NCBI RefSeq assembly: GCF_900177405.1
Contig: NZ_LT840185.1
Coordinates: 1,169,501-1,233,500 of the forward strand
DNA length: 64,000 nucleotides
From: Allosphingosinicella indica
GTDB taxonomy: Bacteria; Pseudomonadota; Alphaproteobacteria; Sphingomonadales; Sphingomonadaceae
Reading direction: 5' to 3'
Shown: positions 2,833 to 49,484 of the stretch, one piece after another
How the letters are laid out: each line of letters starts with the position of its first letter
How positions within the stretch are numbered: the first letter of the stretch is position 1
Notes under the pieces: generated by a model
Databases searched by the model: none
What the model was told of the DNA's origin: nothing
What the model saw: the letters and a program-made list of their open reading frames with translations, nothing else
Made by a program: the position numbers and the translations under genes

Positions 2833-3274
2833 GGTGCGCCTCCAGCGGTTGCTCTTCAGCTAGATCTTCATCCTCCTCCGCGAGCGCGCGCGTGGGAACC
2901 ACCCGCTCGGCGATCATGCCGGCAAGAAGCGGTCCGACGACCGCGCCCAGCAGCATCACCGGCGGCATCGCGAGGAAGAAGGCGTTGGCAAAGCCGTAAG
3001 CGGCCATAAACAGCGCCACCGCCCACACCGGCCCGCGGCTGCCCGACAGCCATTTCGCGAGCACACCGCCGACCAGCGCACCAAGCGCTGCGGAGACGAT
3101 GATGACCAGTTTCGGGCCCACCCCGGCCATTTCGAACGCCGCGCGGATCTGGTCGGTCTCGCGCAGGCTCGCGTTGCCGGAAATCGGAAAGATCGACCCG
3201 CCGATCCAAGCGAACAGCGCCATCGCCACGAAGGCGACGACGATGCCGGCCGTACTGCTCAAGAATGTCCGCAC
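2816..3274 (-). CDS. Small membrane protein of unknown function
   Basis: 152 aa. Hydrophobic helices are at about residues 8-28, 54-75, 80-100 and 103-122, with an acidic C-terminal tail (EEDEDLAEEQ) likely cytosolic. I do not recognise a named family. The first helix could be a signal anchor. The stop overlaps the start of the Mpo1-like gene by 17 bases, so it heads a three-gene unit (this gene, Mpo1-like, Crp-type regulator). Confidence 0.7.
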   Translation of the reverse strand: MRTFLSSTAGIVVAFVAMALFAWIGGSIFPISGNASLRETDQIRAAFEMAGVGPKLVIIVSAALGALVGGVLAKWLSGSRGPVWAVALFMAAYGFANAFFLAMPPVMLLGAVVGPLLAGMIAERVVPTRALAEEDEDLAEEQPLEAHRDEPL

Positions 3275-16733: not shown

Positions 16734-16882
16734 CCATCCCTCTCCCGCTTGCGGGAGAGGAGCGAGACTTGGGTGGTCCCGAAGGGAGCGCCCTAGTCGC
16801 AGCGGTGAGGGTAGGGTGGAGATGCTCAATGCTCCCTGCGCTCGCACCCTCACCCTAACCCTCTCCCGCAAGCGGGAGGGGG
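16734..16882. repeat. C/G-rich double-hairpin element, copy 1
   Basis: The gap between the ABC ATPase and nadB consists of CTCTCCCGC-TT-GCGGGAGAG (16740-16759), a central AGCGGTGAGGGTAGGGTG answered by CACCCTCACCCTAACC, and CTCTCCCGC-AA-GCGGGAGGG (16861-16880). Two hairpins bracket a larger inverted repeat. Related layouts occur at 21016, 23750, 49376 and 62566. The right arm supplies the purine-rich ribosome site of nadB. Confidence 0.8.
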
Positions 16883-23446: not shown

Positions 23447-24790
23447 ATGCCAATCGAACTCAAGATGCCCGCCTTGTCTCCGACGATGGAGGAAGGGACG
23501 CTTGCCAAATGGCTGGTGAAGGAGGGCGACAGCGTCGCGTCGGGCGACATCCTCGCGGAGATCGAGACCGACAAGGCGACGATGGAGTTCGAAGCGGTCG
23601 ACGAGGGCACGATCGCCAAGATCCTGATCCCCGAAGGATCGGACGGCGTGAAGGTGGGCGAGGTGATCGCGCTGATCGCCGCTGAGGGCGAGGATGCCTC
23701 TGCCGCCGCGAGCGCGCCCGAGAAGAAGAAGGAAAAGGAAGAAGAAAAACCCACCCCCAGCCCCTCCCTGAAAGAGGGAGGGGAGCAAGACGGGAAGTCG
23801 GACGCTCCTGCACAATCTTCCCCTTCCTCCCAGGGAGGGGACCGAGGGGTGGGTGCGGCCGTGAAGGCGGACGCGCCCAAATCCAATGAGGATCGCGTCA
23901 AGGCGAGCCCGCTGGCCCGCCGTCTCGCCGAGCAGAAGGGCATCGACCTTTCGGGCATCACCGGCTCCGGCCCGGGCGGCCGGATCGTCAAGGCTGACCT
24001 CGACGGCGGTGCGGCCGCGCGTCCGGCGCAGCCCGAGCGAGCGGCCGGCGATGCGCCCAAGCCCGCCGCCGCGACGCCGAGCCAGCCAGTCGAGACCGAC
24101 ATCCCGCACGAGGCGGTCAAGCTCTCCAACATGCGCAAGACGATCGCGCGCCGCCTGACCGAATCGAAGCAGCAGATCCCGCACATCTATCTGACCGTCG
24201 ACATCCAGCTCGACGCGCTGCTGAAGCTGCGCTCGCAGCTCAACGCCTCGCTCGAGGCGCGCGGCGTGAAGCTGTCGGTCAACGACATGCTGATCAAGGC
24301 GCTCGCCGTCGCGCTGATCGAGGTGCCGGAGTGCAACGTCAGCTTCGCGGGCGATCAGCTCCTGAAGTTCGGCCGCGCCGACATTTCGGTGGCGGTGTCG
24401 ATCCCCAATGGCCTCATCACGCCGATCATCACCGGCGCCGACACCAAGTCGCTCTCCGCGATCGCCACCGAGATGAAGGATCTCGCCGGCCGCGCCAAGG
24501 AGGGCAAGCTGCAGCCCAATGAATATCAGGGCGGCACCGCCTCCATCTCGAACATGGGCATGTTCGGCATCAAGGCGTTCGATGCGGTGATCAACCCGCC
24601 GCAGGCGATGATCATGGCGATCGGCGCGGGCGAGAAGCGCCCCTATGTGATCGACGAGTCCTTGCAGATCGCGACCGTGATGAGCGCCACCGGCAGCTTC
24701 GACCACCGCGCCATCGACGGCGCCGACGGCGCGAAGCTGATGCAGGCCTTCAAGCGCCTGGTCGAAAGCCCGCTGGGGATGATTGCTTGA
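23447..24790 (+). CDS. pdhC: Pyruvate dehydrogenase E2, dihydrolipoamide acetyltransferase
   Basis: 447 aa. One lipoyl domain (1-80) with the lipoylated Lys43 in ETDKATMEF, an E3-binding domain (about 150-186, [23 protein letters not shown]) and a catalytic domain (about 218-447) with FDHRAIDG (His420, Asp424). It transfers acetyl groups to CoA in the PDH core. The linker at residues 102-136 is encoded by a palindromic repeat (23750-23854), an in-frame 35-codon insert flanked by charged KKKEKEEEK. The E1 genes are not in the window. A small guest ORF and the E3 gene follow. Confidence 0.95.
23750..23854 (+). repeat. Palindromic element inside pdhC, in frame
   Basis: 105 bases from CCCACCCCCAGCCCCTCCCT to AGGGAGGGGACCGAGGGG plus TGGGT, complementary ends, with an inner hairpin CCCCTCCCT-gaa-AGAGGGAGGGG. 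Same layout as the intergenic elements at 49376 and 62566. It has no stop in the pdhC frame and a length divisible by three, and encodes Pro, Ser, Gly, Gln and Asp-rich linker sequence. Confidence 0.85.
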
Positions 24791-25038
24791 TTGACGAGTG
24801 GTGGCGCAAGCAGTTTCTGAGCCTGCTTCGCAAGGAGCAAATGGGGGCGGAGCCAGCTTCGCTCACCGCACGATGGTCAGTCTTGGCGTCCCTTACGTGG
24901 CCTCACCGCCGCAAGCGCGTATCGTTCATAGTTCCGGATCACATCTACCATTTTCTCGATGACCCGGACATTCGCTCCAAGGACCGTCGCTATGCCGAAG
25001 GCCAGTGGCGTTTAGCAGAGGATTGGCTCAATGCCTGA
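24787..25038 (+). CDS. Small guest ORF between pdhC and lpd, unknown
   Basis: 83 aa from TTG 24787, which overlaps the pdhC stop as TTGA; ATG 24841 is an alternative (65 aa), preceded by AAGGAG at short spacing. It ends 8 bases inside lpd. Residues include [26 protein letters not shown]; mostly polar, no signal peptide, no family recognised. By hand count about 57% G+C, clearly lower than the flanking pdh genes, which suggests a later arrival. Tight overlaps on both sides imply translational coupling within the pdh operon. Confidence 0.6.
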
Positions 25039-26443
25039 CACCTACGATCTCATCGTCCTTGGCTCGGGGCCCGGCGGCTATGTCGCGGCGATCCGGGCGG
25101 CGCAGCTCGGCCTCAAGACCGCGATCGTGGAGCGCGAGCAGCTCGGCGGCATCTGCCTCAACTGGGGCTGCATCCCGACCAAGGCGCTGCTCCGCTCGGC
25201 CGAGATTTTCCACTATATGCAGCACGCCAAGGATTACGGGCTCGCGGCGGAGAAGATCAGCGCCGATCTCGAAGCCGTCGTGAAACGCTCGCGCGGGGTG
25301 GCGAAGCAGCTCAATCAGGGCGTCACGCACCTGATGAAGAAGAACAAGATCACCGTGCACATGGGCGAGGGCAAGCTGCTGGGGGGCGGCAAGCTCGAGG
25401 TGAAGGGCGACAAGAGCAGCGAGACGCTGACCGCCAAGCATATCCTCGTCGCCACCGGTGCGCGGGCGCGCGACCTGCCGTTCGCCAAGGCCGACGGCAA
25501 GCGCATCTGGACCTATCGCCACGCGATGACGCCGCCCGAAATGCCGAACAAGCTGCTCGTCATCGGTTCCGGCGCGATCGGAATCGAGTTCGCCAGCTTC
25601 TACAACGATATGGGCGCCGAGGTGACGGTGGTCGAAATGCTCGACCGCATCGTACCGGTCGAAGATGCGGACGTCTCCGCCTTCCTCGAAAAATCACTGA
25701 AGAAGCAGGGCATGACGATCATGACCGGCGCGGGCGTCGACAAGATCGAGGCCGGCGCGTCGGGCGTGAAGGCCAGCATCAAGGGCAAGGATGGAAAAGT
25801 CGTGCAAGGCGACTTCAGCCATGTCATCGTCGCGATCGGCATCGTGCCCAACACTGAGGCGATCGGGCTGGAGGCGCTCGAGGTCGCGACCGAGAAGGGC
25901 CATATCAAGACCGACGGCCTGTGCCGCACCAACGTCGAGGGCGTCTGGGCGATCGGCGACGTCACCGCGCCGCCCTGGCTTGCGCACAAGGCGAGCCACG
26001 AGGGCGTCATCGCCGCCGAGGCGATCGCGCAGGCGCTCGGCAACAAGGACGTCCACCCGCACGAGATGGACGTCCGCAACATTCCCGGCTGCACCTATTG
26101 CCATCCGCAGGTGGCATCGGTCGGCCTCACCGAGGCCAAGGCCAAGGAAGCCGGCTATACCGTCAAAGCCGGCACCTTCCCCTTCATCGGCAACGGCAAG
26201 GCGATCGCGCTGGGCGAGGCGGAGGGCTTTATCAAGACCGTGTTCGACGCCAGGACCGGTGAACTGCTCGGCGCGCATATGATCGGCGCGGAAGTCACCG
26301 AGCTGATCCAGGGCTACACCATCGGCAAGACGCTGGAGACGACCGAGCAGGAGCTGATCCAGACCGTCTTCCCGCACCCGACGCTGAGCGAGATGATGCA
26401 CGAAAGCGTCCTCGCCGCCTACGGCCGCGTCCTGCACATGTGA
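25031..26443 (+). CDS. lpdA: Dihydrolipoyl dehydrogenase (E3)
   Basis: 470 aa flavoprotein. FAD motif VLGSGPGGYVAA (9-20), redox disulfide in GGICLNWGCIPTK (C42, C47), NAD-binding GSGAIGIEFASF, and C-terminal HPTLSE with the catalytic His449-Glu454 pair. It reoxidises the lipoyl arm of the E2 encoded just upstream, reducing NAD+. The start lies within the end of the guest ORF. Confidence 0.96.
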   Translation: MPDTYDLIVLGSGPGGYVAAIRAAQLGLKTAIVEREQLGGICLNWGCIPTKALLRSAEIFHYMQHAKDYGLAAEKISADLEAVVKRSRGVAKQLNQGVTHLMKKNKITVHMGEGKLLGGGKLEVKGDKSSETLTAKHILVATGARARDLPFAKADGKRIWTYRHAMTPPEMPNKLLVIGSGAIGIEFASFYNDMGAEVTVVEMLDRIVPVEDADVSAFLEKSLKKQGMTIMTGAGVDKIEAGASGVKASIKGKDGKVVQGDFSHVIVAIGIVPNTEAIGLEALEVATEKGHIKTDGLCRTNVEGVWAIGDVTAPPWLAHKASHEGVIAAEAIAQALGNKDVHPHEMDVRNIPGCTYCHPQVASVGLTEAKAKEAGYTVKAGTFPFIGNGKAIALGEAEGFIKTVFDARTGELLGAHMIGAEVTELIQGYTIGKTLETTEQELIQTVFPHPTLSEMMHESVLAAYGRVLHM

Positions 26444-49375: not shown

Positions 49376-49484
49376 CCCCTCCCCTTGATGGGGAGGGGTT
49401 TGGGGTGGGGTGGCGTCTCCACAGAAGGCGCCAACATTTCCACCGCCACCCCCACCCAAACCCTCCCCCATCAAGGGGGAGGGC
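49376..49484. repeat. C/G-rich double-hairpin element, copy 4
   Basis: CCCCTCCCCTTGATGGGGAGGGG on one side, CCCTCCCCCATCAAGGGGGAGGG on the other, with the inner pair TTTGGGGTGGGG and CCCCCACCCAAA. It occupies the gap between the COQ9 and EamA genes. The rest of that gap (49194-49375) has no convincing gene; a short tandem GAACATTGGGAACATT is seen at about 49342. Confidence 0.8.

Follow-up and report, generated by a model that had tools for sequence, protein, structure and literature searches.

The locus examined here raises a question of origin and of use: how did a palindromic element of the kind that hairpin repeats normally form between genes come to lie inside a conserved enzyme gene of a free-living bacterium, and is it carried there as protein? 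The element sits in a pdhC-like gene of Allosphingosinicella indica, within a stretch of 64,000 nucleotides (the window; contig NZ_LT840185.1, G000:C1:1169501-1233500) of a 2.81-Mb, single-contig genome (G000). The reading favored here, with a probability of about 0.86, is that the pdhC insert is a dispersed, non-autonomous REP/RPE-like repeat residing in a disordered linker with the reading frame kept, and that permissive loops of this kind repeatedly capture unrelated repeat families.

The palindromic element in the E2 linker

The pdhC product, whose best matches bearing names are from Sphingomonas, comprises PF00364 (residues 4-77), PF02817 (residues 151-185) and the catalytic domain PF00198 (residues 221-446), and an lpd-like ORF lies at 25031-26443. 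The sequence-only reading had described a palindromic element of 105 bases, exactly 35 codons long and free of in-frame stops, between the lipoyl and E3-binding domains, and each part of this description was borne out: the ORF contains the element as codons 102-136 (Table 1), the Pfam limits place it between the two domains, and its palindromic nature is reflected in the predicted fold. As RNA, the pairing part (104 nt, the last of the 105 bases serving to finish the final codon) forms one long hairpin of -68.3 kcal/mol, compared with -47.5 (sd 3.85) for shuffles, corresponding to z -5.40 for the whole element, with none of 200 shuffles equally stable. Owing to bulges in its arms, the element was not singled out by a stricter test for ungapped stems, its stem of 10 equalling the longest among 15 shuffles.

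At the protein level the insert has only two large hydrophobic residues among 35, and would be carried as a Ser/Gly/Pro/Gln-rich spacer. In a structure model of the E2 protein residues 88-148 fall below pLDDT 50, a low-confidence stretch around the insert that is as expected of a flexible linker. Its open frame, together with the conserved domains on both sides, suggests that the insert is translated. Elsewhere in the genome, a protein encoded at G000:C1:2106280-2106684 and downstream (L156), which we take to be pdhB-like, carries a lipoyl domain sharing 72% identity with the pdhC domain across 140 residues, and no element was seen by eye in its linker.

Table 1. Coordinates of the pdhC-like gene, its element and related palindromes (window positions, except for locus L304)
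Feature	Position	Strand	Remarks
Degenerate hairpin, subfamily B	16860-16881		between coding segments ending 16718 and starting 16887
pdhC-like gene, dihydrolipoamide acyltransferase E2 of pyruvate dehydrogenase	23447-24790	+	447 aa; Pfam domains
Lipoyl domain, upstream of linker	23456-23677	+	Pfam
Palindromic element, in frame	23750-23854	+	residues 102-136; pairing part 23750-23853
Left unit	23750-23785	+	outward tail CCCACCCCC, then hairpin core
Left-unit hairpin core	23761-23783	+	CCCCTCCC-TGAAAGA-GGGAGGGG
Central spacer between the two units	23786-23817	+	from the fold
Right unit, degenerate hairpin	23818-23853	+	GGGAGGGG at 23833-23840, outward tail GGGGTGGG
E3-binding domain, downstream of linker	23897-24001	+	Pfam
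Intergenic relative, subfamily C	49376-49483		CCCCTCCCCTTGATGGGGAGGGG, tails inward
Five AAATGGGGACAGTAACTATTTGTCCG-like palindromes in L304	about 1035-1092, 1153-1212, 1918-1969, 2597-2645, 2836-2894		positions within L304

A dispersed family with in-frame copies in other enzymes

The core motif CCCCTCCC-N2-10-GGGAGGGG occurs at 47 places in the 2.8-Mb genome and at none in a reversed control, and these cores group into 38 clusters whose hairpin units form inverted pairs, mostly intergenic. Sorting by eye distinguished three subfamilies, namely A (TG/CA inner pairs and a GGGGTGGG tail), B (GC inner pairs and a GGGGGAGGG tail) and C (an ATCAA-type loop), the pdhC element belonging to A. Its left unit has ten further partial matches in the genome (26-42 nt, 84-92%), and its first 36 nt, allowing up to three mismatches, find no second match in the window and 0 in 100 shuffles. 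The earlier proposal that the element shares the layout of intergenic copies in the window is only roughly right, with the reservations that the other full copy (49376-49483) is of a different subfamily, and that pairs read elsewhere mostly turn their G-rich tails inward, whereas those of pdhC point outward (both judged by eye). A search of Rfam found no family near threshold for the element, all matches lying far below gathering scores.

Copies within genes were sought using a codon model trained on pdhC and lpd, which replaced a first model misled by antisense ORFs. Nine clusters fell within coding segments, and seven of the 38 were kept by our count after reading in frame: those of pdhC, a second 2-oxoacid dehydrogenase E2, uvrA, carA, valS, pccA and, probably, bioB (gene names resting on Pfam and solved homologues), with two cores each in uvrA, bioB and valS; the remaining 31 were not counted as in-gene. 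Among candidates set aside, cluster 1233880 is open in frame yet lies upstream of the likely sufS start, and cluster 41568 is a weak segment upstream of a gene. The search for copies within further genes and the comparison of their phase, both proposed on the basis of the sequence, thus yielded six additional enzymes (bioB with the same reservation) and in-gene copies occupying all three phases.

Solved homologues locate several of these inserts between conserved blocks. In uvrA, residues 286-326 constitute 41 unaligned residues at 2r6f 255|255; in carA, residues 197-223 add 27 residues at 1t36 184|186; in valS, 49 unaligned residues (512-560) face 12 of 1gax; and in pccA a net excess of about 33 residues near 3n6r 380-385 corresponds to an insert near residues 382-428. 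The bioB element lies ahead of the first conserved block, and since reading revealed no ATG, GTG or TTG between its second core and this block, at least part of it is probably translated.

The abundance of open frames called for a separate explanation. In six intergenic pairs 2-4 of the six frames are open, compared with shuffle means of 2.1-3.8, and by plain count eight of ten elements lie slightly above the dinucleotide-shuffle mean and two below it. The notion that these repeats are specially stop-free was set aside, as their open frames barely exceed those of shuffles; high GC content is the main reason why several frames are open, and selection for coding finds no good support here.

Linkers and loops in related species

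E2 linkers, which are variable and rich in Pro and Ala, were compared in 103 rows (101 distinct sequences), and the element was present only in the window and in L107, which is from the same genome. In the other 101 rows the top blastn alignment spanned 15 nt (E 0.17) and the top blastp alignment 22 residues at 41% (E 0.28), so that the same linker conserved in distant relatives lacking the element, an observation that would have spoken against insertion, was not found among them. The alignment with close relatives suggested earlier gave this absence but no clean presence/absence pattern at pdhC, where the linker is hypervariable; such a clean pattern is seen at carA and pccA. The 77-residue pdhC linker without its 35-residue insert leaves 42 residues, shorter than the 60-103 residues of other genus linkers (the 31-residue linker of L131 having been set aside as a frame-broken read), and therefore either the element replaced part of the linker, as originally claimed, or insertion was followed by loss. 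Plain insertion would need a 42-residue ancestral linker, which is not seen in the genus.

Other palindromes, unrelated to the element of the window, occur in frame in pdhC linkers of further Sphingomonadales: Sphingomonas horti (L028), a Novosphingobium MAG (L059), Sphingopyxis sp. H053 (L052), Qipengyuania sp. (L068), a Sphingomonas MAG (L044) and Sphingopyxis granuli (L033), the last chosen for its repeat-like sequence and not ranking in the top 45 rows by the stem test. A joined query found clear dispersed copies of these repeats in their own genomes in five of the six cases, the sixth (L044, genome G031) having only short, weak repeats elsewhere and not being counted as firm. Linkers with a fold of z <= -3 number 6 of 102 rows, compared with 3 of 387 equal-length windows taken from further downstream in the same genes (Fisher p 0.0035, with rows treated as independent), and at z <= -2.5 the figures are 9 of 102 and 9 of 387. 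One of the six rows at z <= -3 is the linker of Vannielia litorea (L083), with a 12-bp perfect stem and z near -3, possibly another captured repeat and, in that case, one from beyond Sphingomonadales. In the genus, the E2 linkers of many species, among them L108, L109, L110, L112 and L115, share a motif close to AKEPVAKDGGETGAGQPA, which the E2 of the window lacks.

The loops that carry inserts in G000 were then followed across 26 species genomes of the genus, being resolved in 24 species for carA, 25 for valS, 22 for uvrA, 25 for the second E2, 25 for pccA and 21 for pdhC. Under a strict palindrome test (z <= -2.5 and a stem exceeding that of each of 15 shuffles) positives numbered 4/24 in carA, 4/25 in valS, 13/22 in uvrA, 6/25 in the second E2 and 3/25 in pccA, and 0/21 at pdhC, the window included; the same test misses the second E2 of G000 itself (z -2.1) and long inserts such as those in carA of G003 and in valS of G014 and G018. 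Long loops are found in carA (5/24), pccA (4/25) and valS (5/25, plus half-elements in G021 and G016). By class labels that are script motif matches, those of carA fall into at least two kinds unrelated to each other, GGGAG-type in G000, G003, G021 and G023 and TTCGA-type in G004, where the loop holds a 28-nt inverted repeat with one mismatch. Similarly, pccA carries GGGAG-type inserts in G000 and G009, a TTCGA-type in G010 and a third kind in G016, and valS carries GGGAG-type inserts in G000, G014 and G018 and TTCGA-type inserts in G006 and G025. The extreme case is uvrA, with loops ranging from 32 to 124 residues over 22 species, among them that of G015, labelled GGGAG though its arms are GGGGACA-like. 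G018 and G016 reach 86-87% completeness and show 5-6% contamination, so single entries from them may be mixed, and G018 yields two different carA genes.

Pooling carA, valS and pccA, z <= -2.5 is reached by 11 of 14 long loops (40 residues or more) and by 2 of 60 short loops, both of them half-elements, and in three short loops the stem exceeds shuffles (G024 in carA, G021 and G020 in valS). The sequence beside the loop is steady in length, at 155 residues in 23/23 carA proteins read and 156 in 24/24, and in uvrA at 158 residues after the loop in 22/22 and 217 before it in 20/21, while pccA flanks vary by 4 residues before the loop and 8 after. Large differences in length are thus restricted to the capture site itself, and where the carA and pccA sites are empty, little indicates a palindrome that could have served as a landing pad. 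A joined query of inserts gave 58-103 matches in each of eight genus genomes; among the matches listed, a genome's own insert recurred elsewhere in five (G006, G018, G021, G023, G025) and was not seen for G003, G004 and G014. A tree built from parts of E2, carA and valS with the loops left out, placing 24 of the 26 genomes (G018 and G020 remaining unplaced), shows insert bearers to be scattered, some nodes being weak. Sister pairs with support of 90-100 differ at valS (G025, filled, and G002, empty; G014 and G015; G006 and G011) and at carA (G021 and G017); nodes near G000 are weak (24-41), and the tree does not fix its nearest relative. A structure model of CarA was too poor to be of use (mean pLDDT 40.6, 6 sequences). 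Some of the second E2 linkers (e.g., L236, L237, L240) are full of charged ERR/DRR-type repeats, possibly another route of linker turnover.

Origin of the inserts and relation to known repeats

The favored reading implies a simple mechanism, in which mobile non-autonomous palindromes would insert widely across the genome, copies in most coding positions would presumably be removed by selection, and those in intergenic DNA, permissive loops and linkers would survive; with one such loop per enzyme, unrelated families would be captured there repeatedly in different species. The inserts are probably near-neutral, with transposition as their likely route of entry. It is very improbable that the pdhC stretch is an ordinary low-complexity linker owing its palindromic look to GC-rich Pro, Ser, Gly and Glu codons. 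The compositional bias of E2 linkers and the failure of the strict stem test to flag pdhC would suit such an origin, yet the genome copies that share both core and tail largely refute it, and the ten matches to the left unit, the empty reversed control, the fold of the whole element and the excess of strongly folding linkers over equal-length windows speak against it.

Somewhat less improbable, though still unlikely, is a single ancient palindrome insertion at each site, inherited and later lost or swapped by gene conversion rather than captured independently. Occupation of the same sites in many species, the varying length of the uvrA loops and related inserts shared by some species, such as G002 and G025 in the second E2, speak for it. 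Against this, families at one site are unrelated in sequence, their bearers are scattered on the tree (with the weak nodes noted), and the short loops of carA (31-35 residues) and pccA (23-30 residues) are near-uniform, with z <= -2.5 in 0/19 and 0/21, respectively, although the short carA loop of G024 has a stem just above shuffles. A role of the element as nucleic acid, in mRNA or chromosome, e.g., as a translation-pausing hairpin between domains or as a binding site, with coding incidental, has a lower probability than inheritance from an ancient insertion; a very stable hairpin between folded domains and the 31 clusters outside the in-gene count agree with it, but most orthologues do without a strong hairpin (19/24 carA and 21/25 pccA loops are short, none with z <= -2.5), and no Rfam family came near threshold. 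Beyond independent capture at permissive loops, it is tentatively proposed that a few housekeeping-enzyme loops may act as recurrent capture sites through which a lineage gains unrelated protein segments from whichever palindromes are active in each genome, linkers perhaps evolving by palindrome turnover beyond point mutation alone.

In the REP/BIME pairs of enterobacteria and pseudomonads, which are dispersed in intergenic DNA, two hairpin units flank a spacer with opposite polarity, and the repeats described here share this arrangement; they differ from these, and from RAYT-mobilized REPs, in that no Y1/RAYT transposase was found in this genome. RPEs are described as palindromic repeats of 105-146 bp that lie between genes and also, in frame, within conserved protein genes (PMC2229807). 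The resemblance to in-frame palindromic inserts of Rickettsia put forward initially holds by description, in size and in frame: the present repeat is a dispersed 104-nt palindrome in 38 clusters, within the range of about 100-150 bp that marks the RPE and WPE elements of Rickettsia and Wolbachia, and has in-frame copies in conserved genes (pdhC, the second E2, uvrA, carA, valS, pccA and, probably, the bioB N-terminus). The two cases differ in that the host belongs to another order, with a GC-rich 2.8-Mb genome, and in the presence of several unrelated families at the same protein sites. Intragenic REPs tagged by GTAG/CGTC occur within ORFs both singly and in pairs; the genes include uvrA and those of tRNA synthetases, with synthetase cases also in two sphingomonads, S. 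alaskensis and E. litoralis, and there is one same-site case, recB of two Xanthomonas species (PMC3733652). Here, too, hairpin units form inverted pairs, mostly intergenic, but their stem is CCCCTCCC/GGGAGGGG with GGGGTGGG or GGGGGAGGG tails, neither tag was read at the stem foot in the pdhC element or its genome copies, and same-site inserts of different kinds occur in five genes of one genus.

As in-frame REPs and RPEs are already in print (PMC3733652, PMC2229807), the kind itself is known; what looks new is that the same sites have captured unrelated families repeatedly. A literature search, with most subscription papers outside its reach, returned no report of these repeats in Sphingomonas proteins or pdhC and none of same-site capture of unrelated families on this scale. 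One genus offers natural replicates: the carA, pccA, valS, uvrA and second E2 loops stand empty in certain species and contain unrelated repeats in others, with pdhC providing a further case across Sphingomonadales. Such replicates allow direct tests of the way in which selfish DNA turns into protein, of the properties that render a site permissive, and of the neutrality of the inserts. For structure and annotation work the warning is that such loops can be repeats.

A profile search for the Y1 transposase (PF01797) gave none in G000 and hits in 11 of the 26 genus genomes. In four relatives' loci that were read the motifs of the main families do not flank the Y1 gene, except for one hairpin in L306, and in one of the four the gene is flanked by another palindrome, GGGGACAGTAACTATTTGTCC. 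In L304 (G014) a Y1 transposase-like gene has near-perfect palindrome copies of a different family, such as AAATGGGGACAGTAACTATTTGTCCG, on both sides, and the uvrA gene of G015 holds a palindrome of GGGGACA type.
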